Of a stretch of 31,538 bases of DNA, positions 16,505 through 31,538 are shown piece after piece. This stretch comes from a virus: IMG/VR virus record IMGVR_UViG_3300046010_005245, positions 1 to 31,538 of that record; one strand, 5' to 3'. The notes under the pieces are model-generated. The model was not told the DNA's origin. It searched no databases and was given only the letters and a program-made list of their open reading frames with translations. Within the stretch, counting starts at the first letter, position 1; each line of letters opens with the position of its first letter. Position numbers and translations under genes: made by a program.

Positions 16505-19500
16505 ATGTCAGCTTTAACCAGAATATTAAACAATCAGATCACCAACAGCACGATCATCGCTAGCCAGAAGATCGTCGCAGGATCTATTACTGGTAGTTTA
16601 TTTGCCAGCAACGTAACAGTACCAGGTGACTTCCTGATCACTGGTAACTTGTTTGTCCTAGGTACCAGTGCTTATACCACTATCGCCTCAACTAACACCT
16701 TTGTTAACGATCCCCTGATCGTGCTTAACAATGGTTTTGCGGGCACTAACACCTACGATGAAGGCCTGATATTTAATCGTGGATCAAGCCAAAATCGTGC
16801 ATTGATCTGGAGTGAATATTTCCAAGAATTCCGCCTCATAGGCACGACAGAAACTGGTACTGCTTATGGTAACGTAACGGTCAGCAACTATCAAAATTTA
16901 CATCTAGGTAATCTAACAGTTGATTATGATGCTAATGTAACAACAGCCCGTGCTTCAGGCAACATCACACAAACAGGTACAGGCTCACTACAAGGTGCAG
17001 ATTTTGCAGGTAACGTGGCCTTAAACGGTCCTTATGTAACGACCTCACAAGGATTGATTAATTTCTTAGATTCTGGTGTTACCACAGTTAATGTATTTGG
17101 CGCAGCCACAGCCATTGATCTAGGTGCTACGACTGGTACGCTAACCGTCAATAATCCAACAGTAGTTGGTACACAGTCAACACAAAACTTATATAACGCA
17201 GTTGCTACCACATTAAACTTTGCCAATGCAGCCTCTACATTAAACATTGGTGCTGATAGTGGTACATTGACTATTAGTAATCCTACAGTAGTTGGTGTAC
17301 TCGGTACACAAAACTTATATAACGCAGTTGCTACTACACTAAACTTTGCAGGTGCAGCCACAACATTAAACGTTGGTGCTAGCACTGGCACAGCTACGAT
17401 CAACAATCAGGTGCTGGCACTGCCTAATGCTTTCGCTCTACGTATCAATGGCGCTAATCCAACATTAGAGTCAACAGCCACCGGCACATTAAACCTATTC
17501 AATGCTAATATAACAACAGTAAACGCATTTGGTGCCGCAACTGATATTACCGTTGGTGCTACGACTGGTACAGCCAATATCAAGAATTTAATCACCAACA
17601 TCAGCGGGCAACTAAATGTCCTAGTTGGTACAGGTAGCACAACCACAGGCACTGGCGCAGTAGTAGTAACAGGTGGCGTGGGTATTAGCGGCAACTTAAA
17701 CCTTGGTGCAAACTTATTGGTAAATGGCCCCGCACTGTTTAATAACACAGTATCCACAGTAGGTATCTCCACATTCACTAATACCACTAACTCAACTGAT
17801 GCCAGCGGATCAACCGGTGCGCTAAGGATAGCGGGTGGTGCAAGTATTGCCAAGGACCTATGGGTTGGTGGTAATCTTTACGCAAGTAATATCTTTGGAG
17901 TCGTACATCAGGTCATCACTGTCCAAGATCCTTTGGTCTACTTTGATGCGGCCAATACATATCCTTACAACTATGATATTGGTTTCTACAGTAACTTCGT
18001 AGGACCAAACCCGATCGACAATACTGGCAATGTATATCAACACAGTGGTATTGTTCGTGATAATTCCGACAACACATGGAAATTCTTTAGTAATGTACGC
18101 AGCGAACCCGCAGGTACTGCTATATCGATTGATAGTGACACTATCTTTGACCCGATCCGTGCTGGTAATTTAACATTAACATATATACAAGAAGCAACAA
18201 CAGCTACTACTGGTGCGTTAATAGTAGGCGGTGGCGCTGGTATCGGTGGTAACATATTCCATACAGGCACACAGTTACAAACATCAGCACCTAATTATGT
18301 ATTTGCTACAACACCAACCACGGTTGATGCATTTAAAGCTGCGACTACATTAAATGTTGGTGCTAATAGTGGTACACTTACCATAGGTAATCCAACATTA
18401 GTTGGCACACAAACAACACAGGCATTATACAACACTGTCACTGACACATTAAACTTTGCTCGTGCAGCCAACATTACTATGGGTCATACGGATGGTACAA
18501 CTACACTACAAGGTAATGCTAACGTTCGTGCGGTAACACAGTCAACATCATTTACCAATGGTGCATTGGTAGTAGCTGGTGGCCTTGGTGTTGCAAGTAA
18601 TTTAAATATCAAGGGTGGTAGTTATTTAACTTTAGGTAAAGACCTAGCCGGTGGCGTGGTTTATCCAGAAGACGCAGTACAAGTCACGGCAAATGCCAAT
18701 TCAGCAAGTAGAATATCAATACAAAATCTTAGCAGTGATCAATCAGCTACTACAGAATTTATAGCGATGGCTGACAATGGATCTAATGAAGACAATTATA
18801 TTACTGTTGGTATAACCAGCAGTACATATAATTCAGCAGCACTTGCTCCTATTTTACAGCCAAACGATGGCTACACACGTTCTATTAGTAATTTAGTATT
18901 GATTGCCGGTGATGATGTTGTTATTGCAGCAAATGGAAGAAGCCAAGTTGGTGTTAGGATTAGTGCTAGCAATTCAAACGTTGGAGTACAATATTCTACA
19001 GAATCTACAACAGAAAAAACTGGTGCATTCACTGTAGTTGGCGGTGCGGGTATTGCTAAAGATTTGTATGTAGGTAAAGGCGCCACATTTAATAGTTTAA
19101 GAAGTACTAATCCGATTCAAGTCCTTAGCTCAACATCCGGTAACGTGGCGATATTTGCCAACGTAGCCACAACCTTAGCAGCATCAACAGAATACGTAGT
19201 CATTGGTGGTGGTAATACTGTAGTACAACCAGGTGTAACATTAAAAGTTGGCAGTATCACATCTATGATGATACCAACTGGTCCTACAGCCGGTAGACCA
19301 AGTAGCTTGTTTGGTGGTCCAGAATATGACGTACAAGGTATGTTCCGTTACAATACAACTATCAATAACATTGAGTTCTTTGATGGTACTAACTGGCAGT
19401 CTTCAGGTTCAACATTTACAGTTATCAGTGACAGACAGTTCAGTGGTAACGTAGCAGGCGGCTTTGGTAACGTTGACGGTACAAATACTAACTTTACTTT

Positions 19501-21348: not shown

Positions 21349-22065
21349 ATGATATTTATAGATAACAAATATACTAAGATTTATTATAACATAATTAATT
21401 CTGCCAAAGCAACCTCACTAATGGATGGATATTTAGAACAACATCATATTATACCTAAATCACTTGGTGGGTTGAATACGGTTGATAATCTTATTAATTT
21501 AACAGCAAGACAACATTTTGTATGTCATTGGTTATTAACTAAAATGGTAGTTGGTAAAGATAAGAAAAAAATGATTTTTGCTATTAATAGGATGTTGTCA
21601 GCCACAATACATCAGCAAAGATATAAAATTACAGGAAGAAAATACGAATTGCTTAAAATACAATTTTCTAAAATTAATCCATTTAACGATAAAGATTGGC
21701 AAAAATTGCAAAGAAAAAATAATCATATTGGTAAAAAGAGATCAGAAGAATCCAAACAAAAACTTAGAGATGCTTGGGCAAAAAATAGAGAAAATAGAAT
21801 AGGAATTAACCACCCATCATATGGCAAAGTTAGAACTAAAGAAACTTTAAAAAAAATGTCAGAATCAATGAAAGGAAAATTAGTTAAAGAAAAGAATCCA
21901 ATGTATGGAAAAACTCACAGCATTGAAGTTAAAAATTTTCTGTCAGAACGACTATTAAAAAATCCTATTCCTAAAAAATATATCTATTGTGAGTATTGTG
22001 ACAGTACTATTGATGCTGGAAATTACAAAAGATGGCATGGTGATGTTTGTAAATTAAAGAACTAA
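21349..22065 (+). CDS. Free-standing HNH homing endonuclease with NUMOD3 motifs
   Basis: A 238-residue, Lys-rich protein. The HNH core is EQHHIIPKSLGG (H32, H33), then VDNLINLTARQHFVCHWLL (about 45-63) with N50 and H56/H60. Three NUMOD3-type DNA-binding repeats follow: GKKRSEESKQKLRDAW (about 128-143), NHPSYGKVRTKETLKKMSE (about 154-172) and NPMYGKTHSIEVKNFLSE (about 183-200). A C-terminal zinc-finger-like element has C214, C217, H230 and C234. Architecture matches phage homing endonucleases that move between genomes by cutting a site in a related phage. It is more AT-rich than its neighbours, a sign of transfer. It overlaps gp15 by 12 bases, tail to tail. No interrupted gene was found, so it is free-standing rather than intron-borne. 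Confidence 0.92.
   Translation: MIFIDNKYTKIYYNIINSAKATSLMDGYLEQHHIIPKSLGGLNTVDNLINLTARQHFVCHWLLTKMVVGKDKKKMIFAINRMLSATIHQQRYKITGRKYELLKIQFSKINPFNDKDWQKLQRKNNHIGKKRSEESKQKLRDAWAKNRENRIGINHPSYGKVRTKETLKKMSESMKGKLVKEKNPMYGKTHSIEVKNFLSERLLKNPIPKKYIYCEYCDSTIDAGNYKRWHGDVCKLKN
21353..21360 (-). promoter_or_regulatory. Late promoter TATAAATA (minus) for Nudix gene
   Basis: On the minus strand this is an exact match to the T4 late consensus. It lies inside the first codons of the HNH gene and 26 bases before the Nudix ATG. Predicted transcription start is near 21347. Confidence 0.7.
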
Positions 22066-23469
22066 CGTAAATGTTCCTGCTTTATACTCGCCTTCATAGC
22101 TTTTTATCCATTGAGATTGATTCCACTTGTATTGAGTTCCGGTATTGAGATTACTTACATATTGTAGCGTCGTGTCTGTGCGGCTGTCAAATGAAACAGC
22201 CCAATTTGTACCATTGTATTGTATGATATCGTTGGCATGGGCTACTAATTGCAGACCATCGATACCAGTCCAAATTGGAGCGCCATCTCCAGGAGCATTG
22301 TCAAAACTTCCGATATCATCCAAGATCAGATAACGTGTGCCATTGACTGCTGATTGAGCTAACGATACAGCGGAATCTTTGCGAGGATCAACGATGGCAT
22401 CGATCGGTGATAAGGTATTAGAGGGTTTGGTATCTATGTCAACATTGAAAATCAATAGGCTGTCATCGGTTGGGTGATAGCTGACCGTGCCAATGACTTC
22501 ATTGAGGCCATCTTCCTGCAGGAGTCGGACCTGGCTGACGCCATTCTGCAGTTCACCGTAGACACTGATCAAGCTACGCCATATGTCTTTGGTTCCTACC
22601 TTGGTTGGGGTTTCTAATGTTGGTGGATCTCTTGGGTCAGCAATCTCACTGATCTTGAGCAAGGTCAGCTGATTACCGATCAGCAATACTCCATACATCA
22701 GCGGAGTGAAATACTGTCTACGACCTAGTAGATTGTCTTCACTCATCACATCAGCACTGAGATTACCATCGCTGTCGTGTATGCTGGCGATGATCTTCTG
22801 TATGACTCCCAGCTTCTTGATCTTAGCTGGTGGGCTGATCCAAACGGGCAATTTAAATGTCAAGGTAGCCACATCGATAGGATTTTCAGTACCAATCGGC
22901 ACGCTACGGCTAGTCCAATTAGGTGATTCCAGATAGACCACACTTAGGCTGGTCCAGTCAATGTAGTTGTCTGTCGATTGTATTTCCAGTGCTGGGTTAA
23001 ACAGCACCATCAATTGTTCTAATAGCTGTAGTTTCTGTTTGGTGTTTGATGTCCATATATCTAATTTTAAATCTATAGTGTAAGGTACAGGCATCAGGCG
23101 TTCGATGCTGAAGGCATTACCTTGGCGATTTTCGTACTCCATGGTGTCTTCATTGTAATAGCGTTCTCTGATCTGCATCTTGCCAATAAAAGTAGGATCC
23201 TGTACGCGATCGCGATCATAGGTGATGTTATTGATCCAAGCAGCCATGGCTGGTACTGTGGGTAACATATTACCAGCGGTATTTTGGCTAAGTATGGTCT
23301 GCACCTGGCGACTGCTGTCGCCATAGTAAACAGGCACACGTTGTAGAGTAGTATTGCCTTGGCGATCCTGCCCGAACTCTACTTGGAATCCTGATACCAT
23401 CCTAATGAACTGCGCAAGGAATCGCTCTATCTGGGCATCATAAAAAAATTGAATATTAGCTGTGGCCAT
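22054..23469 (-). CDS. gp15: Tail sheath stabiliser and completion protein (T4 gp15 family)
   Basis: A 471-residue protein (T4 gp15 is 272) that caps the tail and joins it to the neck. The N-terminus, IQFFYDAQIERFLAQFIRM, parallels the FYNSSFRRY start of T4 gp15, and LQRVPVYYGD (about residues 43-52) matches its RVPITYAS. The middle has MPVPYTIDLKLDIWTSNT and QLLEQLMVLFNPALEIQ (about 126-162), matching the SPIKMIYELSIFT and VEQILPYFQP blocks. VATLTFKLPVWISPPAK (about 200-216) matches the family end of that domain. The extra C-terminal half, with SVYGELQNGVSQVRLLQEDG then a beta-rich tail, is as in marine relatives. It follows gp14 by two bases, so both come from one minus-strand transcript. 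Confidence 0.85.
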   Translation of the reverse strand: MATANIQFFYDAQIERFLAQFIRMVSGFQVEFGQDRQGNTTLQRVPVYYGDSSRQVQTILSQNTAGNMLPTVPAMAAWINNITYDRDRVQDPTFIGKMQIRERYYNEDTMEYENRQGNAFSIERLMPVPYTIDLKLDIWTSNTKQKLQLLEQLMVLFNPALEIQSTDNYIDWTSLSVVYLESPNWTSRSVPIGTENPIDVATLTFKLPVWISPPAKIKKLGVIQKIIASIHDSDGNLSADVMSEDNLLGRRQYFTPLMYGVLLIGNQLTLLKISEIADPRDPPTLETPTKVGTKDIWRSLISVYGELQNGVSQVRLLQEDGLNEVIGTVSYHPTDDSLLIFNVDIDTKPSNTLSPIDAIVDPRKDSAVSLAQSAVNGTRYLILDDIGSFDNAPGDGAPIWTGIDGLQLVAHANDIIQYNGTNWAVSFDSRTDTTLQYVSNLNTGTQYKWNQSQWIKSYEGEYKAGTFTLVL

Positions 23470-23471
23470 CT

Positions 23472-25130
23472 TTAGTTATCCGCTGAAGGACGTAGTGCTT
23501 GACTCAAGCTCTGACGTTCATTGACTACATTTGTGTAAATTGTATATTCTAACACACTGCCAATTGGCAATGGGCTTGCATCTGCTATAGTAGCACTTGA
23601 TACTACGCCAGTCAGGTTACCAGCTAAGGTATAACTCGCACTTGATGCATTGGCCGCAGTTACGATGTAACTGCCATTAAAAGCTGTGCTACCAGCTACA
23701 CCTGCTATCAAGATATCTTGACCTACTACGAACGGTGTAGTTGATTGGCTAGCGAATCGTATAGTAGCATTACCACCCGTGGCCGTAGCAGATGTTATCC
23801 TTAGCTTTCTTGGATACAGTGGACCAGTGATAGTAACAGCTATATTACCACTGCTGTTAGATATAGTATTAGTGATAGGTAATCCGTCTAGACGAGTTCT
23901 AGCACCATAGGTGCTGTTGTATGGAACTTTAACGACCACTGTCTTGGTAGATAGTGTAAACGATAATGTAGCCGCATTGGCAGCTGGAACGTATGAATTT
24001 GAGATACGTATAGCATCCCAAGCTGCACTGTTGCTCATGAACTGATTAGTGTCGTTGATAAATCCACTTAGTTGTGTTTGATTCTCCGTGCCCGGTGTTA
24101 GGTTAGTTCTCACTGAATCCTCTACTTTGACCCAACGGCGACCATCATATCGGAACAGCCTATTAGGTATGTAATCTAAACGTAGATGGTAGTCGCCTTG
24201 TCCTGGAGCAGCTGGGAACGCGATACCAGCGGCCACTGTGGCACCGTTTGGTGGTAGTGCATCTCCAGTGAGATAACCTTCTATCTTTACTGCTGACGTC
24301 AATGTCTGTGCGCTGGCATCTGCGATGTTTGAGCTGGCATCAGGACTCATGTCACTGGCATCTAGCGCACCAGGATCAACAGGTAATCCATGTGCGTTAA
24401 CATTTTCAGTATAGAACGTGCTGGTGTCATAGCCACTCTTAGGTACATCTTGTTCTGCACGAGTGACGATAGCATCATTGATCTCGATGTATTTGTTATA
24501 GGTGCTGATAACTTCGCCTAGAGTATTGGTATTTGTTTCGTCGTTGCTGGCTGGTAAATTATTAAGTATGTCTTTGTATTCTTGGCTGTCTACCAATGGT
24601 TGTAGTTTAACACGCCATAGGTGCGGCCACCAAGTCTGTGCGAATCCTTCCGCGGCACGGCTAGCGTCATTGACCACATAGAAGCGTTTGAGTGCGGCGC
24701 CAATACCTTCATCCAATGGATAGTAGTCTATTAGATTTGGTAGTTCTAGCACATCACCTACCATGAGCTTGCGTCCGATGACGTCAATCATGTCATCATA
24801 GTGGAACACAGAAAACATGGTGTCGCCAGTTAGGAATAGACCAAACTGCGTTAGATCAAAGTCATTGTCATTGATACGATAGATAGTTCGCATGGTATAG
24901 ATACTAGTATCATACTTGCGATCACGGTTTTCTAAAAACAATAGATCTTGGATACCAGTGATGCCCGTAGCACCCGTTTCTGTAGCACTGGCATTGGCCT
25001 GTGCCAATGGACCTAGATATTTGTGGACATAGACGTCAACGCCACCCACGGTGAACATTTCACTCATTGTCTTGTTGATGAATTTATCGTCGTTGCCTTT
25101 GGTTGGCTTGTATAAACTTAAACGTGGCAT
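23472..25130 (-). CDS. gp14: Neck protein (T4 gp14 family)
   Basis: A 552-residue protein, about twice T4 gp14 (256), that helps form the neck joining head and tail. Family-like parts are FINKTMSEMFTVGGVDVYVH (about residues 17-36), DFDLTQFGLFLTGDTMFSVF (about 91-110), VGDVLELPNLIDYYPLDEG (about 125-143) and RFYVVNDASRAAEGF (about 149-163) before WPHLWRVKLQPL. This resembles T4 gp14 (SNFGMQVQDEVTLSIN, EGDLIYFP). The extra length includes an Ala/Ser/Thr-rich beta domain (about 440-520) that may be an added surface or binding domain. The ATG is preceded by TAGGATT and a late promoter. It lies on the minus strand, opposite to gp13. Confidence 0.82.
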   Translation of the reverse strand: MPRLSLYKPTKGNDDKFINKTMSEMFTVGGVDVYVHKYLGPLAQANASATETGATGITGIQDLLFLENRDRKYDTSIYTMRTIYRINDNDFDLTQFGLFLTGDTMFSVFHYDDMIDVIGRKLMVGDVLELPNLIDYYPLDEGIGAALKRFYVVNDASRAAEGFAQTWWPHLWRVKLQPLVDSQEYKDILNNLPASNDETNTNTLGEVISTYNKYIEINDAIVTRAEQDVPKSGYDTSTFYTENVNAHGLPVDPGALDASDMSPDASSNIADASAQTLTSAVKIEGYLTGDALPPNGATVAAGIAFPAAPGQGDYHLRLDYIPNRLFRYDGRRWVKVEDSVRTNLTPGTENQTQLSGFINDTNQFMSNSAAWDAIRISNSYVPAANAATLSFTLSTKTVVVKVPYNSTYGARTRLDGLPITNTISNSSGNIAVTITGPLYPRKLRITSATATGGNATIRFASQSTTPFVVGQDILIAGVAGSTAFNGSYIVTAANASSASYTLAGNLTGVVSSATIADASPLPIGSVLEYTIYTNVVNERQSLSQALRPSADN

Positions 25131-25150
25131 TACAGAATCCTATTATCTAG

Positions 25151-25158
25151 TATTTATC
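25151..25158 (-). promoter_or_regulatory. Late promoter GATAAATA (minus) for gp14-gp15
   Basis: The minus strand reads CGATAAATACTAG. The box ends 21 bases before the gp14 ATG, giving an inferred 15-base leader with TAGGATT, the geometry of the plus-strand late promoters. Confidence 0.75.
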
Positions 25159-25162
25159 GACA

Positions 25163-25191
25163 TTGACAAGCTAGCCAAAATGTGTTATACT
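25163..25191 (+). promoter_or_regulatory. Sigma70 promoter TTGACA-N17-TATACT
   Basis: A perfect -35 element (25163-25168), a 17-base spacer and a TATACT -10 (25186-25191). It lies back to back with the minus-strand late box, only four bases away. Transcription should start at about 25197-25199, at the start codon of the next gene. Such promoters are read by unmodified host RNA polymerase and usually mark early phage genes. Confidence 0.88.
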
Positions 25192-25196
25192 GTATC

Positions 25197-25463
25197 ATGG
25201 CTGAAATTACTCAGAGTTTAGATTGGGCTAGAGTTCAAATTGAACTAGAAGCACCTGCACATAAAATGAAACGATATACTGGTGATATGCTGAAAATGAG
25301 CAGTGCTATAGGACACATGGTTAAACGGCTGTCAGAAGAGGAAATCAACTGCCGCAGACAGGGCAAGCAAACCCAACGACACAAGAAATTGCTAGAGCAA
25401 ATCAACCAGGAAATAGCCAATTATGAAGCTTATCTTACTTTTGGTGTGCTGTTAAATGGTTGA
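25197..25463 (+). CDS. Small helical protein of unknown function
   Basis: An 88-residue protein beginning MAEITQSLDWARVQIELEAP. It is mostly charged helix: HKMKRYTGDMLKMSSAIGHM (about 22-41), then a basic RRQGKQTQRHKKLLEQINQE (about 53-72), ending in a short hydrophobic YEAYLTFGVLL. The ATG at 25197 is preferred to a GTG at 25182, which lies inside the promoter spacer. There is no Shine-Dalgarno, and the promoter places the transcript start at or beside the ATG. The stop codon overlaps the -35 box of the next promoter. No family recognised; probably an early regulatory or host-interaction protein by context only. Confidence 0.7.
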   Translation: MAEITQSLDWARVQIELEAPAHKMKRYTGDMLKMSSAIGHMVKRLSEEEINCRRQGKQTQRHKKLLEQINQEIANYEAYLTFGVLLNG

Positions 25464-25488
25464 CAAAACACCCAAAAGATGCTATAAT
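25460..25488 (+). promoter_or_regulatory. Perfect sigma70 promoter TTGACA-N17-TATAAT
   Basis: Both hexamers are exact consensus (25460-25465 and 25483-25488) with the optimal 17-base spacer. The -35 overlaps the upstream stop codon. AAAGGAG follows before the ATG at 25512. Confidence 0.95.
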
Positions 25489-25511
25489 ACACATAATAAA
25501 GGAGTGACTAA

Positions 25512-25736
25512 ATGCATGATTTTATTAGAAAACTATGGGATAACAAGGCCACAATAGCTGTTATATTGTGGATAGCTGTATTTGCTTGGGTTTATAATTC
25601 TAACCCTACAAGAAAACCCATGATCCAACATAAACCTGCCGGAAAAACCATAGAAGAAATCATGGCCACTCCGGTAGATAAATCCCAAGACGCCGCCTGG
25701 GACAACGATTTTAAATCAACTGTGGAGCCTAGATAA
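25512..25736 (+). CDS. Small single-pass membrane protein, early
   Basis: A 74-residue protein. A short N-terminal amphipathic part (MHDFIRKLWDNK) is followed by one clear membrane segment, ATIAVILWIAVFAWVY (about residues 13-28), and a polar tail of about 45 residues. Charge distribution suggests the Lys-containing N-terminus stays inside and the tail may be periplasmic, but this is uncertain. AAAGGAG gives strong translation from a perfect sigma70 promoter, so large early amounts are expected. Phages use such proteins for membrane effects such as exclusion or inhibition of lysis; which applies here cannot be told. The next gene starts within its stop codon (TAATG). Confidence 0.72.
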   Translation: MHDFIRKLWDNKATIAVILWIAVFAWVYNSNPTRKPMIQHKPAGKTIEEIMATPVDKSQDAAWDNDFKSTVEPR

Positions 25737-25909
25737 TGAACTATAAATGGAGCCAACCTTATCCCGGCGAAAGCCGTTATGAACGATTGTTCCGTGCCCA
25801 ACGTATCCTACAGCTATCACGACATGTCATGCTGTTAGATACTGTTGAGCCAGTCAAAGATCTGTCACAAGCGGCTAAATATCTCATGAAGTTTAGATTG
25901 GAGCGATAA
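25736..25909 (+). CDS. 57-residue basic protein of unknown function
   Basis: This short frame begins at the last base of the upstream stop codon (TAATG), a usual sign of translational coupling. It encodes MNYKWSQPYPGESRYERLFR, then a predicted amphipathic helix (AQRILQLSRHVMLLDTVEPV) and LSQAAKYLMKFRLER. GTGGAG lies just upstream as a ribosome site, and the next gene follows after one base. The strict packing with neighbours and helix-like composition support it as a real gene despite its size. No family was recognised. Confidence 0.62.
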   Translation: MNYKWSQPYPGESRYERLFRAQRILQLSRHVMLLDTVEPVKDLSQAAKYLMKFRLER

Positions 25910-25910
25910 T

Positions 25911-26144
25911 ATGAGTACACCTGTATATATGGAAATTGAAGAAGCTCACAGCATAGTTAAATTCCATGGAGACGAATATGGACATCACAATCTATTTGGT
26001 GCTCTAAACAGCATGGAAGAACTTTGGGACGAACTAGACAGCATGGAACGCAGTGCTTACAAAATGGTCAAGCGTGAATTAGAAAAAGAGATATTAAATA
26101 AACTTAAAGTCGAAATTACCGAAGACGATGGACAACCAGATTAG
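25911..26144 (+). CDS. Small acidic protein of unknown function
   Basis: A 77-residue acidic protein, MSTPVYMEIEEAHSIVKFHG, with a His/Glu/Asp-rich first half and a charged helix (DELDSMERSAYKMVKREL). TTGGAG is placed well before the ATG, one base after the previous stop. It ends exactly where the next sigma70 promoter begins, so the three genes from 25512 form a small early operon. A chance GCTAAATA at 25874 could give late expression too. No function can be assigned. Confidence 0.65.
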   Translation: MSTPVYMEIEEAHSIVKFHGDEYGHHNLFGALNSMEELWDELDSMERSAYKMVKRELEKEILNKLKVEITEDDGQPD

Positions 26145-26172
26145 TTGACAGATAAAATAAATTCTGTATAAT
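26145..26172 (+). promoter_or_regulatory. Sigma70 promoter TTGACA-N16-TATAAT
   Basis: Exact consensus hexamers (26145-26150 and 26167-26172) with a 16-base spacer, starting immediately after a stop codon. AAGGAAC precedes the ATG at 26197. Confidence 0.9.
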
Positions 26173-26196
26173 TAAATGATTAACTAAGGAACTAGC

Positions 26197-27387
26197 ATGG
26201 CAATCAAGATTGACGGAATGAAAAAGAAAGCTAAAGTTACTAACATCAACTTCAGCGATGAAAAATATACAGGTAAAGAACCTACGTGGGATTATGATCG
26301 TGCTTTAACTTTTTCAGACGAAGAATTTGACCATCACCTACGTAAGAGCTTTGCCTACTATAACTATTACTATGGCCCTAGAGATTTAAAGAAATATGTA
26401 GTTGCTTGGTTGCGAGAGCATGAAGGTGACAGCGGAGTTCATAAGTTAGATAAAACAACCATTGATCGATATGCCCGTTCAGCAGACACCTTAACACCGT
26501 TTACAGTCTGTGCTCTAGTTAAAGCAAATGCGCAGGGCATGCCTTTGCGTGATAAACATGTAGAATATATCCTTGATGCTGTGCATCGTGTGTTAGAGAT
26601 GCGTGCTGACGATGAAGAAGTTGACGAAAAGAAAGACACAAAGAAACCTGAAGTAAAAATTCCTACCATCCAAGACCGTATGAATGAAGTAGCTAAGAAA
26701 CATATCTTATACTTTGAAATCTTAGAAGATGCACTATTCGCAGGTGAAACTGTAGATCCAAAAGCCTATGAATATCTAGTCAAGAACCTAGTACCACAGG
26801 CATTGATAGGTAAGATACAATCTGTATTCGAGCCACGCTATGCTGAACTCAAAGAAGCACGCAAAGGTGAGTGTGAACAACTTAAAGAAGCCTACGGTTT
26901 TATGAAAGCCGCAGACTATAAACGCTATGATGCGTTCTATGAAAAACTGTTCCAAGATTTGACCGCCTACAATCAGACTAAGAAAGCTACCAAGAAAGCC
27001 GCGGTACGTAAGCCACCACAAAAAGAAAAATTAGTTAAAAATTTAAAATATCTCAAACAAGACACAGCTCTTAAGATTGTCAGCGTCAATCCGGTAGACA
27101 TCGTTGGTGCCGAAGTCTTATGGGTTTACAATGTTAAATCACGTAAAATTGGTCGATATGTAGCAGAAGATCAAGGTGGCGCATTGGGTGTTAAGGGTAC
27201 TGCTATAACAGGGTTTAACGAGTCTAAAAGTGTACAAAAAACCCTGCGCAAACCAGAGGTGCAGCTAAAAGAATTCTTAGCCGCAGGAAAGATCCAATTA
27301 CGTAAGTTTTTAGATGATATTAAAGCAACTGATATTAAACTAAACGGTCGTATCAATCAAGATACAATTTTGCTAAAAGTACAATAA
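26197..27387 (+). CDS. Conserved phage protein of unknown function, early
   Basis: A 396-residue, Lys-rich soluble protein. The N-terminal half is helical with aromatic clusters (FAYYNYYYGPRDLKKYVVAW, about residues 51-70). A basic low-complexity linker (TKKATKKAAVRKPPQKEK, about 261-278) separates a C-terminal domain. That domain contains EVLWVYNVKSRKIGRYVAE (about 303-321), VKGTAITGFNESKS, VQKTLRKPEVQLKEF and LNGRINQDTILLKV. I recognise this C-terminal region from hypothetical proteins of marine T4-like phages but no function is known. The layout suggests nucleic acid binding, which is inference. It has its own sigma70 promoter, so it is probably made early and in quantity. Confidence 0.75.
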   Translation: MAIKIDGMKKKAKVTNINFSDEKYTGKEPTWDYDRALTFSDEEFDHHLRKSFAYYNYYYGPRDLKKYVVAWLREHEGDSGVHKLDKTTIDRYARSADTLTPFTVCALVKANAQGMPLRDKHVEYILDAVHRVLEMRADDEEVDEKKDTKKPEVKIPTIQDRMNEVAKKHILYFEILEDALFAGETVDPKAYEYLVKNLVPQALIGKIQSVFEPRYAELKEARKGECEQLKEAYGFMKAADYKRYDAFYEKLFQDLTAYNQTKKATKKAAVRKPPQKEKLVKNLKYLKQDTALKIVSVNPVDIVGAEVLWVYNVKSRKIGRYVAEDQGGALGVKGTAITGFNESKSVQKTLRKPEVQLKEFLAAGKIQLRKFLDDIKATDIKLNGRINQDTILLKVQ

Positions 27388-27390
27388 TTT

Positions 27391-28626
27391 ATGCCACTTT
27401 GTTATAGTTTCAACACTAATCTTAGCGTATCGATTAATCTAAATTTGGTAGAAAATGTGCCCTCGTTGCTCAAAGACTATAACAACCTAACAGATTTTGC
27501 AGAAGAGGAGCATTTACAAAGTCCGGGGTACTGTTTATTTTTAACATATACTTGGGAAATAACTAAAGATATTAATTCGTTTAATAATATGTTTAATAAA
27601 CTGATATCAGAAATTAAACATGAATATCCAAAAATTACAATACACGTTATATTAGATTCATGGTTTTTAGACGAAAAGTTGAATATTGATGCTCCTATAA
27701 CTTTTGTTGATTTTTTATTGTTTATGACTTGTTCTGAGAATAATAAACAAAAGTTAGTTGGTATAGATAATTGGAATTTTAATGCATCAAAATTTTTGTT
27801 TTTAACTGGAAAATGGGATAAAATTCAGAGAATACGATTGTTCTACAAACTACAGCAAGCAGGATTAATAACTGAAGAGGTATGTGAGTGGTCCCTCTTT
27901 GCCGTCGACAAGTCTATTATCTCATCTGAATATGTTCCAGAATTAAATAATTCTCTTCAAGAATTTCTTAAAGTATATGTGCGCTATCCTGACAAATATT
28001 CTCGAAATATTGAAAAAACTCAATGTGGCGGCGTATTTTATAATCCTCAACTTTTTCAAAATTCTTTATTTAGGTTAATATCTGAAACATATTTTTCTAA
28101 TAATAATAAGCCAGTGATTACAGAAAAAACATGGGACACCATTTTTAATCGCTTACCTTTTATAATAGCAGGTAATGTAAATACATTACGCCGTCTTAGA
28201 GATATGGGTTTTAAAACATTTGATCAATATCTGATAACAGAGTACGATAATATTACCACCAAAGAAGAAAGACTAAATGCGATTGTAGCTAACACTAAAC
28301 ATTGGATAAAAAATCTAAGACAGTTTAAAGATCAAGTAAACGCCGATATAGAACATAATAAAAAAAGACTTGACGAGTTGTACTTAAAAAATTTAGCACA
28401 GATTGAGCAACTTATAACAGGTTATAAATTAAATTTGACTCCCCTAGACATAGTAGACACACATTCATATATGATGTCTTCTTTTAATTTTAAAAAATGG
28501 TATAACTTAAGAAAAGGCTCAGATTGGCCAGATTGTCGGTTTGAAAGAGATTTATACACCCTGCCAGATCGTATTAAAGCTGAGTGTGAGAAATTTGGGT
28601 ATGTATTTAAAATAACAAAAGTATAA
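27391..28626 (+). CDS. AT-rich accessory protein, possibly glycosyltransferase-associated
   Basis: A 411-residue protein with codon use much richer in A and T than its neighbours, suggesting recent acquisition. The clearest motif is TEKTWDTIFNRLPFIIAGNV, then LRRLRDMGFKTFDQYL (about residues 244-281). I associate the pattern TEKTW..I....PFI......LR..GFKTF with viral and bacterial proteins often located in glycan or surface-modification clusters. Catalytic residues are not evident, so the role is unproven. It starts three bases after the upstream stop with no Shine-Dalgarno, and no own promoter was found, so it may depend on readthrough. It looks like a cargo gene placed between the early island and gp13. 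Confidence 0.62.
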   Translation: MPLCYSFNTNLSVSINLNLVENVPSLLKDYNNLTDFAEEEHLQSPGYCLFLTYTWEITKDINSFNNMFNKLISEIKHEYPKITIHVILDSWFLDEKLNIDAPITFVDFLLFMTCSENNKQKLVGIDNWNFNASKFLFLTGKWDKIQRIRLFYKLQQAGLITEEVCEWSLFAVDKSIISSEYVPELNNSLQEFLKVYVRYPDKYSRNIEKTQCGGVFYNPQLFQNSLFRLISETYFSNNNKPVITEKTWDTIFNRLPFIIAGNVNTLRRLRDMGFKTFDQYLITEYDNITTKEERLNAIVANTKHWIKNLRQFKDQVNADIEHNKKRLDELYLKNLAQIEQLITGYKLNLTPLDIVDTHSYMMSSFNFKKWYNLRKGSDWPDCRFERDLYTLPDRIKAECEKFGYVFKITKV

Positions 28627-28666
28627 AAGTACAAATAAACAATATATCCTCTTATACTACAAACAT

Positions 28667-28674
28667 AATAAATA
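28667..28674 (+). promoter_or_regulatory. Late promoter AATAAATA for gp13
   Basis: AATAAATA ends 22 bases before the gp13 ATG. The inferred 16-base leader contains CAGGATAA as ribosome site. Confidence 0.65.
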
Positions 28675-28695
28675 TAGTATAACAGGATAATTTAC

Positions 28696-29613
28696 ATGTC
28701 TGATTTACCAGCAAATGTTTCAGCAACCACAGGCCTAACAGCAAATCTCAGTCTCACAACTGAAAGCCTATTTAATCCAGCAACAGGCACAGGTGCTGGG
28801 CGCATTGCCTTTGATGCTAACCTACAGGCACAGTTAACCACGGTACAAAGCCTGCAAAATGATATCATTGATTACATCCGTCTACGTTTAGGCTATGGTA
28901 TGATCGATGTTGAAGCTGACAAAGAACACTTTGACATGGGAATCAAACAAGCCCTTATCCGCTATCGCCAAAAGAGCAGTAATTCAGTAGAAGAATCATA
29001 TGCATTCCTAGATATACATCCTGAAACACAAGAATACATCTTGCCTAATTACATCATGGACGTCAAACAGGTATTCCGCCGTGGTATTGGCAGCGTCACA
29101 GGTACGACTGCTAGTCAATTTGAACCATTTGCCAGTGGTTACTTGAACACTTATATGTTAGTAGCTGGACGTGTTGGTGGACTAACCAACTATGAACTAT
29201 TCGTAGACTATCAAAAACTAGCCATGCGTATGTTTGGTGGCTTTATGAACTTTACCTGGAACAAAGTAACCAAAAAACTTACCCTAGTACGCAAACAACC
29301 ATTTGGTGGAACTAGTCCAAACAATGCAGTCAGCGAAAGCGTCTTGCTTTGGGTCTATAACTATAAACCAGATATCATGTTGTTGAACGATCCGCAGGTA
29401 TTTCCATGGATACAAGACTATGCTTATGCATTAACATCTATGAGCATAGGCCAAGCACGTGAAAAATTCGCAAGTATCGCAGGCCCACAAGGTGGTACTA
29501 GCCTTAACGGTACTGCGCTCAAACAAGAAGGACAGGCCCTACTGGATAAACTTGATGAAGAGATCAAGAACTATGTAGACGGTGGTCAACCATTAACCTG
29601 GATAATGGGTTAA
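28696..29613 (+). CDS. gp13: Neck protein (T4 gp13 family)
   Basis: At 305 residues it is nearly the length of T4 gp13 (309). Family blocks are DYIRLRLGYGMIDVEADKEH (about residues 57-76), LIRYRQKSSNSVEESYAFL (about 85-103), PETQEYILPNYIMDVKQVFRR (about 107-127; key run YILPNYIMDVKQVF) and LWVYNYKPDIMLLNDPQ (about 223-239). The protein helps close the filled head below the portal and receive the tail. The first 40 residues are a Thr/Ala-rich extension. It keeps T4 orientation relative to gp18 and gp20-23, whereas its usual partner gp14 is inverted 3.6 kb upstream. A late promoter and AGGAT precede the gene. Confidence 0.9.
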   Translation: MSDLPANVSATTGLTANLSLTTESLFNPATGTGAGRIAFDANLQAQLTTVQSLQNDIIDYIRLRLGYGMIDVEADKEHFDMGIKQALIRYRQKSSNSVEESYAFLDIHPETQEYILPNYIMDVKQVFRRGIGSVTGTTASQFEPFASGYLNTYMLVAGRVGGLTNYELFVDYQKLAMRMFGGFMNFTWNKVTKKLTLVRKQPFGGTSPNNAVSESVLLWVYNYKPDIMLLNDPQVFPWIQDYAYALTSMSIGQAREKFASIAGPQGGTSLNGTALKQEGQALLDKLDEEIKNYVDGGQPLTWIMG

Positions 29614-29619
29614 AAACTC

Positions 29620-29648
29620 TAGACTTTCGCAGCGAATTCCCGTAAAAT
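29620..29648 (+). promoter_or_regulatory. Probable sigma70 promoter TAGACT-N17-TAAAAT
   Basis: Near-consensus hexamers (29620-29625, 29643-29648) with an ideal 17-base spacer lie between gp13 and the kinase gene. AAGGAG follows before the ATG at 29672. This fits early expression of a nucleotide-metabolism enzyme. Confidence 0.65.
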
Positions 29649-29671
29649 AGTATATCAACTAAGGAGTAGCT

Positions 29672-30376
29672 ATGAGTCAAGTCATTGGTATCTGTGGACT
29701 GATTGGTGCGGGCAAGGACACAGTAGCAGATTATCTGGTTAACCTACACGAATTCCGCAGAGAAAGTTTCGCCAACAGCCTCAAAGACAGCGTTGCCGCT
29801 GTGTTTGGATGGGATCGCGAACTATTAGAAGGCCGCACCAAACAATCAAGAGAGTGGCGAGAGCAAGTAGATCTATTCTGGGCTGATCGCTTGAAGATGC
29901 CCAAACTAACTCCACGCTGGGTCTTGCAATACTGGGGCACAGAAGTTTGCCGTAAGAACTTCCATGATGATATCTGGGTAGCCAGTCTAGAAAATCGTCT
30001 GCGACAGAGCAAAGATGACATTGTTATCACAGACTGTCGATTTCCCAACGAACTCAAAGCCATACGCAAAGCTGGAGGTAAGATCATACGTGTCAAACGT
30101 GGAGCAGAACCCGAATGGTATGATGATGCGGTCAGCATGAACAAAGGTCCCAGCCGCAATATGTCGTGGGCCCTAAGCAAGCATAACATTGAAAAACTTA
30201 AGATACATGCTAGTGAAACTGCTTGGATTGGTAGTAAGTTTGATGCAGTATTAGATAATAATGGCTCGTTAGATGACTTATACCTACAGATAGAACAAAT
30301 ATTAGTTAAAAATCAGGCACTAGATCTCCCTGCCGCCATCCTAGGCCCTCGCGAGCAACTTCAAATTGGCAGTTAG
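29672..30376 (+). CDS. gp1: Deoxynucleoside monophosphate kinase (T4 gp1 family)
   Basis: A 234-residue kinase (T4 gp1 is 241) that phosphorylates dNMPs, including modified ones, to dNDPs for phage DNA synthesis. The P-loop GLIGAGKDT is at residues 9-17. Further typical parts are REQVDLFWADRLKM (about 67-80), TPRWVLQYWGTEVCRKNFHD (about 84-103), DIVITDCRFPNELKAIRKAG (about 119-138) and the substrate-side KGPSRNMSW. AAGGAG precedes the ATG. The last 71 bases overlap the opposite HNH gene. The final 23 or so residues (QALDLPAAILGP, then REQLQIGS) look unrelated to the kinase core, which seems to end near EQILVKN. A late-only enzyme would be odd, which supports the sigma70 promoter. Confidence 0.93.
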   Translation: MSQVIGICGLIGAGKDTVADYLVNLHEFRRESFANSLKDSVAAVFGWDRELLEGRTKQSREWREQVDLFWADRLKMPKLTPRWVLQYWGTEVCRKNFHDDIWVASLENRLRQSKDDIVITDCRFPNELKAIRKAGGKIIRVKRGAEPEWYDDAVSMNKGPSRNMSWALSKHNIEKLKIHASETAWIGSKFDAVLDNNGSLDDLYLQIEQILVKNQALDLPAAILGPREQLQIGS

Positions 30377-30656
30377 CACAGACTGTTTTTAGATTGGTCA
30401 TGCTGGTATTGTTTAGATCACCATCGACGTGATAGACATATAACTGTTCTTTTAACTTAGCCTTGAACCCACACTTTTCACAGTGTGGTTTCTTTTTATA
30501 GCCTAGTTCCAACCAACGAGGCTTGGGTGCTGGCAAATTGCGCTTCTTCCTAATGCAACTATCACAGCGAGTCCTATAGTAAGTCTTGCCATGCATCTTA
30601 TAGTTAATTGCAACAGGTTTTTTACCACAGATTAGACATATTTTTCGGTATTCCAT
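30306..30656 (-). CDS. HNH endonuclease with paired zinc-binding cysteines
   Basis: Read from the ATG at 30656, the product has 116 residues. It has four CxxC pairs: C7/C10, C31/C34, C59/C62 and C93/C96. The HNH-like core is YHVDGDLNN (H76) followed by MTNLKTVCANC, as in small phage HNH proteins where the second and third zinc pairs hold a beta-beta-alpha metal fold. An upstream ATG at 30701 would add 15 residues but lies before the promoter box. The gene is opposite to its neighbours, overlaps the 3' end of the kinase gene by 71 bases and lies next to gp18, typical of a selfish free-standing endonuclease. Nuclease activity is inferred from the motif. Confidence 0.78.
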   Translation of the reverse strand: MEYRKICLICGKKPVAINYKMHGKTYYRTRCDSCIRKKRNLPAPKPRWLELGYKKKPHCEKCGFKAKLKEQLYVYHVDGDLNNTSMTNLKTVCANCQFEVAREGLGWRQGDLVPDF

Positions 30657-30661
30657 ATACC

Positions 30662-30669
30662 TATTTAGC
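30662..30669 (-). promoter_or_regulatory. Late-type box GCTAAATA (minus) directly before HNH gene
   Basis: The minus strand reads GCTAAATAGGTATATG. The box ends five bases before the ATG, so by T4 late geometry transcription starts at the A of the start codon. The same spacing is seen at 3743-3756. Confidence 0.5.
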
Positions 30670-30728
30670 TTACAGCAGTGGATGAACCTTTCAAAGGGCA
30701 CCTTAGAACACCAAAATTGCCAAATATC

Positions 30729-30736
30729 TATAAATA
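30729..30736 (+). promoter_or_regulatory. Late promoter TATAAATA for tail sheath gene
   Basis: An exact T4 late consensus box on the plus strand, 34 bases before the gp18 ATG. Expected start near 30742, with TTAGAGGA as ribosome site. Confidence 0.85.
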
Positions 30737-30769
30737 GTTTAAAGTAACCTATTTAGAGGAACAAATACT

Positions 30770-31538
30770 ATGGCATCATTAATTTCCCCAGGCGTCCAGG
30801 TAACGGTCATCGATCAAAGCCAATACGCACCAACCCAAGCTGGTTCAGTACCCTTGGTTATACTTGCAACAGCACAAGACAAATTATCTCCAGGTGATAC
30901 ACTGGCTTCAGGCACAACCATAGCTAATGCTGAAAAGATCATCACTGTGACTAGCCAACGTGATCTCGTTAATTTATTTGGTAATCCTTTCTTTGCAGTT
31001 GATGCAAGCGATAATCCAATTAACGGTGATGAACGCAACGAATATGGTTTATTAGCAGCTTATTCAGCACTGGGTGTGACTAATACCATGTATGTGCAAC
31101 GTGCTAATGTTGACCTAGCACAGCTAGAAGGTACTGGTACACGTCCAACAGGAACACCTCCTGATGGAACATACTGGTTAGATGTAGGCACTACTAACTA
31201 TGGTCTTTATGAGTGGTCACAAGATACTGGATTTACCCTAACAACACCATCAGTGATCACATCAACTAGTTATCTAAGTAGTGGTATACCACTAGCTTCA
31301 TATGGTAGCATTGGTGAGTATGCTGTGGTAGCCACAAGTTCAGCTAATCCAATCTATTACAAAGGTTTTGACAATGCGTGGAAATTAGTAGGCAGCGACG
31401 ATTGGAAATCAGTAGTTCCAACTGTTACAGGTAATATCGCAAGTCCCACAGTTACAGCCGGCCATAAGATGTTCATTAATGGTAATCTTGTTACTATGTC
31501 AGGCACGACAGCTTCTACTGCTGCAACTAACTTTCTCC
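30770..31538 (+). CDS. gp18: Tail sheath protein (T4 gp18 family), N-terminal part
   Basis: The frame stays open to the window edge, so only the first 256 codons are seen. The start MASLISPGVQVTVIDQSQYA is the classic N-terminus of marine T4-like sheath proteins. It is followed by AGSVPLVILATAQDKLSPGD (about residues 24-43), ITVTSQRDLVNLFGNPFF (about 58-75), NEYGLLAAYSALGVTNTMYV (about 90-109) and RPTGTPPDGTYWLDVGTTNY (about 125-144). The sheath contracts to drive the tube into the host. A consensus late promoter and TTAGAGGA precede the ATG. The gene is probably followed outside the window by the tube gene gp19, as in T4. Confidence 0.95.
   Translation, partial: MASLISPGVQVTVIDQSQYAPTQAGSVPLVILATAQDKLSPGDTLASGTTIANAEKIITVTSQRDLVNLFGNPFFAVDASDNPINGDERNEYGLLAAYSALGVTNTMYVQRANVDLAQLEGTGTRPTGTPPDGTYWLDVGTTNYGLYEWSQDTGFTLTTPSVITSTSYLSSGIPLASYGSIGEYAVVATSSANPIYYKGFDNAWKLVGSDDWKSVVPTVTGNIASPTVTAGHKMFINGNLVTMSGTTASTAATNFL

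Follow-up and report, generated by a model that had tools for sequence, protein, structure and literature searches.

Transcription in bacteriophage T4 and its relatives is divided between early and late promoters (PMC2988021; PMC1524935). The early promoters are near-consensus sigma70 sites, some with a TGn extended -10 element, that precede early genes and many novel small open reading frames (ORFs), and the late genes carry TATAAATA-type boxes (PMC2988021; PMC1524935), the first base of which is variable in T4-like phages (PMC1524935). In the promoter/stem-loop (PeSL) cassettes of T4-type phages (Arbiol 2010 and Comeau 2014, as cited in PMC4503421), an early promoter lies between small genes and variable cargo lies between conserved genes. 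Both promoter types and this cassette-like layout recur in the locus described here: an island of small genes that, judging from its sequence and from those of its relatives, is very probably an early transcription module of the T4 kind, flanked on both sides by late virion genes.

Gene order and promoters at the locus

The window (the whole 31,538-nucleotide stretch analysed, positions 1 to 31,538 of IMG/VR virus record IMGVR_UViG_3300046010_005245) is part of a T4-like myovirus late region from an uncultured group of freshwater phages. Comparison of positions 22000-31538 with phage records at the nucleotide level gave no match. From left to right, the window carries structural and fibre-like genes, gp15 and gp14 (both leftward), and the island; to the right of it stand gp13, the gene of a deoxynucleoside monophosphate kinase, and a gp18-like gene. 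Translations alone, without a profile scan, served to name the gp18-like gene and everything left of gp15; gp15 was identified by Pfam as the T4 tail sheath stabiliser (1.4e-23). A NUMOD3/HNH homing endonuclease gene (window positions 21349-22065, 27% G+C) adjoins a Nudix gene before the inverted gp15, and a small HNH-type gene (30306-30701, - strand), found in most relatives, overlaps the 3' end of the monophosphate kinase gene.

A first-pass annotation of this sequence had described five rightward genes between the inverted gp14 and gp13, driven by three near-perfect host-type promoters with spacers of 17, 17, and 16 nt and seemingly built as promoter-gene blocks, two of the -35 boxes overlapping or abutting the preceding stop codon. 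The ORF listing and promoter scores bear out this description: five rightward ORFs (P1 to P5) and three sigma70-type promoters are found between gp14 and gp13 (Table 1), with P_A upstream of P1, P_B upstream of P2-P3-P4, and P_C upstream of P5. The P1 stop codon (TGA, 25461-25463) falls inside the P_B -35 box (gg-TTGACA) and the P_C -35 box directly follows the P4 stop codon (TAG-TTGACA); P_A has no contact with a stop codon and adjoins the gp14 late box.

Table 1. Positions of genes, promoters, and late-type boxes at the island and its flanks.
Feature	Position	Strand	Description
gp14-like virion protein (left-hand late neighbour)	23472..25130	-	phrog_11591, annotated virion structural protein
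gp14 late-type box	25151..25158	-	GATAAATA, 20 nt upstream of gp14
Promoter P_A	25163..25191	+	TTGACA-N17-TATACT, 11/12, TGn extended -10
P1	25197..25463	+	88 aa, predicted three-helix bundle, no Shine-Dalgarno
Promoter P_B	25460..25488	+	TTGACA-N17-TATAAT, 12/12
P2	25512..25736	+	74 aa, single hydrophobic segment, Shine-Dalgarno present
P3	25736..25909	+	57 aa, basic (pI 10), start overlapping P2 stop
P4	25911..26144	+	77 aa, acidic (pI 4.6)
Promoter P_C	26145..26172	+	TTGACA-N16-TATAAT, 12/12
P5	26197..27387	+	396 aa, phrog_11903
P6	27391..28626	+	411 aa, 30% G+C; additional gene separating P5 from gp13
gp13 late-type box	28667..28674	+	AATAAATA, 21 nt upstream of gp13
gp13-like head-tail adaptor (right-hand late neighbour)	28696..29613	+	phrog_211, head-tail adaptor

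Sites were scored against the sigma70 consensus, this promoter preference being assumed for the host; a search for homologues in bacterial genome contigs, aimed at finding the host, gave two hits only, in metagenome bins, and was uninformative. Two sites in the window match at 12/12, both in the island, against 0.06 expected from dinucleotide shuffles, and none of 200 such shuffles of the whole window contained two. A scan at 9/12 or better gave 55 sites against 51.8 expected, which is chance level, so only near-perfect sites count. The window being only 31.5 kb, the abundance of this promoter class was tested in relatives: the pattern occurs at 35 sites in a 329-kb relative, against 4 in the reversed control, and is likewise present in the other six related records. 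In the stretches read, the genes that follow are mostly small genes of unknown function or enzyme genes, and mostly non-structural. The island promoters, with near-consensus -35 and -10 boxes 16 or 17 nt apart (16-18 nt in the T4-type early class), are not special: sites of the same type stand before dozens of genes in related genomes.

The flanking genes carry the other signal, a T4-type late box shortly upstream of both gp14 and gp13. Boxes of the ATAAATA type precede gp20, gp13, gp14, gp18, two fibre-region genes, and one HNH gene, 17-33 nt (mostly 20-21 nt) from the start, and none occurs within the P1-P5 block. These boxes were recognised by this placement and not by word frequency, as the bare word ATAAATA is not over-represented in the window (9 occurrences, 11.3 expected).

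Conservation of the island and its proposed transcription

The relatives examined are 80 IMG/VR loci found with P5, and all of the close ones are metagenomic contigs. Nearly every locus of sufficient length has the order gp15 and gp14 (leftward), P1, P5, and gp13 (rightward), a recognisable P1 being absent from a few distant relatives. Promoters missing from relatives that keep the genes, which the first-pass annotation had named as evidence against its reading, are not what we observe: the P1 promoter is present in 44/44 distinct upstream regions (10-12/12, spacer 17), the P2 promoter in 19/19 distinct relatives (11-12/12), and the P5 promoter, at 10/12 or better, in 45 of 50 (12/12 in 33), with the other 5 scoring 8-9. 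In two of these five exceptions (L056 and L059) P5 overlaps the end of P4, so it could be read from a promoter further upstream. This retention of promoters together with their genes favours functional promoters. P_A shows a clear footprint, its boxes being kept while half of the spacer drifts: across 36 distinct relatives, all box columns hold 1.3-2.0 bits and 9/12 are invariant, whereas the spacer shows nearly no base preference over its first half (0.1-0.5 bits).

P1 and P5 are the fixed, nearly constant parts of the module, and P2-P4 are optional cargo: P2-P3-P4 stand between P1 and P5 in 26 loci, nothing in 24, and partial or other sets in the rest. Where P5 directly follows P1, a separate P5 site is usually present at the stop codon of P1, and relatives in which P4 follows P1 and overlaps P5 have a good site in front of P4. 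Movement of P4 between unrelated phages was considered and rejected: all hits with readable context are at the same locus, and only the 329-kb relative (L089) has a P4-like protein elsewhere, with its own promoter (at 16643). P2 has one hydrophobic segment (residues 13-31, mean Kyte-Doolittle 1.49), a probable membrane anchor, in line with the membrane-type protein noted in the first-pass annotation. P6, which may resemble glycosyltransferase-like phage proteins, is outside the conserved module; among the loci examined, it occupies its position only in the window and in a contig of identical sequence (L001). Weak P6 relatives lie beyond gp13 in L005 and L056-L058, indicating that this spot gains and loses genes.

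The P_A -35 box and the gp14 late box are arranged back to back with a gap of 5-7 nt in 44/44 distinct relatives. A polymerase footprint is usually large enough, compared with this gap, that P_A and the gp14 box probably cannot be occupied simultaneously. At the onset of infection, P_A, P_B, and P_C would be used by host sigma70 RNA polymerase in its unmodified form, giving early mRNAs for P1, P2-P3-P4, and P5, respectively. Island transcription may continue towards gp13, because no rightward terminator was found (no terminator-like site on the + strand in 25163-28700). Later, a phage late sigma factor of the gp55 type would direct transcription from the two ATAAATA boxes, leftward into gp14 and rightward into gp13, and exclusion between P_A and the gp14 box would here amount to a simple switch from early to late transcription. 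Later use of P_A and P_B is also conceivable, a sigma70-like site being compatible with middle or constitutive activity. Part of what this locus adds is the fixed pairing of an early and a late promoter back to back.

Translation starts of P1 and other probable early genes

The predicted transcription start of P_A lies at or beside the A of the P1 start codon. Across 58 distinct relatives, the P1 ATG follows the -10 box by 5 nt (26 relatives), 6 nt (24), or 9 nt (8), and these one-base changes leave no upstream in-frame start common to all. No Shine-Dalgarno sequence precedes P1 in any of 39 distinct relatives, compared with 56/59 for P5, 39/39 for gp14, and about 94-100% for P2-P5, gp13, gp14, and the kinase gene. 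The ATG codons of P2 and P5, which have Shine-Dalgarno sequences, lie 23-24 nt past the -10 box. The P_A mRNA thus probably begins at the P1 AUG, its 5' end being predicted from sequence, and would be translated as a leaderless message.

The same spacing recurs elsewhere in related genomes. In three related records, the 91 sites at 11/12 or better are followed by 11 ORF starts at 5-7 nt and by none at 8-17 nt, with a second cluster beginning at 18 nt and peaking near 30-33 nt. The count of 11 compares with about 1.06 expected (Poisson tail 2e-8, an approximate figure because positions upstream of these very sites supplied the expected rate and the 11 include orthologues), and none of these 11 starts has a Shine-Dalgarno sequence. 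Only strong sites leave the 8-17 nt interval empty; with sites down to 10/12 included, a few starts fall inside it. Close relatives again gave 7 starts at 5-7 nt.

Two replication-related genes share this arrangement. Among 40 distinct relatives, the DNA primase gene has no Shine-Dalgarno sequence in any, and 30/30 with a site of 10/12 or better have it at 6-7 nt; thymidylate synthase has the leaderless design in 23/23 relatives with such a site, although a promoter is missing at that place from many thymidylate synthase genes that are more distant. The thymidylate synthase start codon is supported by a Pfam match that starts at residue 2 with profile position 1. The helicase is less uniform than either.

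We consider it likely that a group of freshwater T4-like phages, some of jumbo size, share a conserved class of leaderless early genes of which P1 is a member, and that the host-type promoters of these phages follow two designs. In one design, which would comprise P1, DNA primase, thymidylate synthase, and probably the gp41-type helicase and others, the AUG is at the transcription start and lacks a Shine-Dalgarno sequence; in the other, the AUG lies roughly 20-45 nt past the -10 box, mostly with a Shine-Dalgarno sequence. If true, this would amount to a genome-wide split in the initiation of early-gene translation, which might favour intact 70S ribosomes in the early phase of infection, and the shared design of P1 and core replication genes yields a simple, testable prediction about early translation starts. 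A literature search of partial coverage found no description of leaderless early genes in T4-like phages.

Other genes with starts at 5-7 nt and no Shine-Dalgarno sequence, in the G001-G003 and G005-G007 regions (L084-L090, L254-L264, L278-L286), include DnaJ-like, Nudix, and further genes. Leaderless-type promoters also precede a fatty acid desaturase gene of one relative (L264:2382-3197, - strand; Pfam 2e-11) and a gene for a 669-aa phage protein with CHASE2 (Pfam 3e-37) and adenylate/guanylate cyclase (1e-19) domains (L087:15697-17703, + strand), a phage-encoded sensor cyclase.

Function of the island proteins and comparison with known systems

P5 belongs to an old, widespread phage family and is not a recent weapon: it matches phrog_11903 over its full length (E 6.1e-68, residues 15-395 on profile positions 15-382 of 383) and has relatives of 25-42% identity in phages of Sinorhizobium, Stenotrophomonas, Pseudomonas, Caulobacter, Ochrobactrum, and others. 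Its predicted structure, weak overall (pLDDT 76, pTM 0.33), comprises three linker-connected regions, of which one is strongly basic; basic stretches lie at 1-20 and 263-290. The model had no reliable match in the PDB (a KTSC-domain match to 4rgi, of probability 0.41, was too weak to be used) and, in a viral library, matched only phage proteins without known function. The P5 homologue of PA5oct has a TTGACA-18-TACAAT site and is followed by a neck protein with AATAAATAG. The homologues of phiM12, YB07, and Ochrobactrum phage OC have such neighbours as the genes for RNase H, ligase, ribonucleotide reductase, and gp33; in the smaller isolates checked, no strong sigma70-like site was found at the homologue. 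From the basic stretches and these early-gene neighbours, we would tentatively guess that P5 is a non-virion nucleic-acid-binding protein. The family is now linked to host-type promoters and to a probably non-structural role. P1 gave nothing convincing against phage records and PHROGs, and its fold search returned only generic three-helix bundles; UvsY, AsiA, and gp33 were considered as identities and found no support.

The first-pass annotation had also suggested that the island serves host takeover or defence, its small proteins disabling host functions just after infection. Early promoters, tiny proteins, a membrane anchor, and the variable cargo P2-P4 would all suit such a role, but homology and structure comparisons gave the five proteins no function: Pfam, PADLOC, and solved structures produced no function-giving match for P1-P5, and PADLOC models no hit to P1-P6 up to E 1. 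P1 and P5 are, moreover, conserved core and not accessory, the relatives of P5 in smaller phages adjoin DNA-metabolism genes, and early timing by itself does not imply takeover. What stands of that interpretation is the host-type early promoters, the promoter-gene units, and the placement of early genes in a late region; a takeover or defence role we regard as unlikely. Somewhat less probable still is that P1 and P5 help neck assembly beside gp13 and gp14 and are only primed early. Nearly every relative does have both of them between gp14 and gp13, and P5 adjoins a neck gene in PA5oct too; however, the module lacks the late boxes that its neighbours have, the annotation of PA5oct notes mass spectrometric detection for the neck protein and does not so mark the P5 homologue as a virion component, and in other isolates the genes around P5 are of early type and the stretch read contains no neck gene.

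That the promoters are chance look-alikes in AT-rich phage DNA is highly improbable: weak 9/12 sites are indeed as frequent as in shuffled sequence, but the two perfect sites far exceed their expectation, and the sites stand just before genes and are conserved in dozens of relatives. An early transcription module of the T4 type accounts best for the island, and the T4 plan, in which early modules with host-like promoters are set among late genes with ATAAATA boxes, would hold in this uncultured freshwater phage group as well.

The locus departs from each known system in some respect. The -35 box is GTTTAC in T4 and TTGACA here, and in the 100 kb of T4 tested none of 25 strong early sites has a start at 5-7 nt past the -10 box, unlike this lineage. 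The island differs from PeSL cassettes in lacking a terminator-like stem-loop on the + strand. PA5oct-like jumbo phages (Pseudomonas aeruginosa, Arenbergviridae) share a small membrane-type gene, a P5 homologue with a sigma70 site, and a neck protein with a late box, but show no P1, other upstream neighbours, and only one start of the leaderless type (in PA5oct), with no leaderless class. The lambda cI mRNA likewise has its AUG at or near the predicted 5' end without a Shine-Dalgarno sequence (PMC9031893); here, by contrast, the predicted leaderless genes form a conserved early-gene set that includes P1, DNA primase, and thymidylate synthase.
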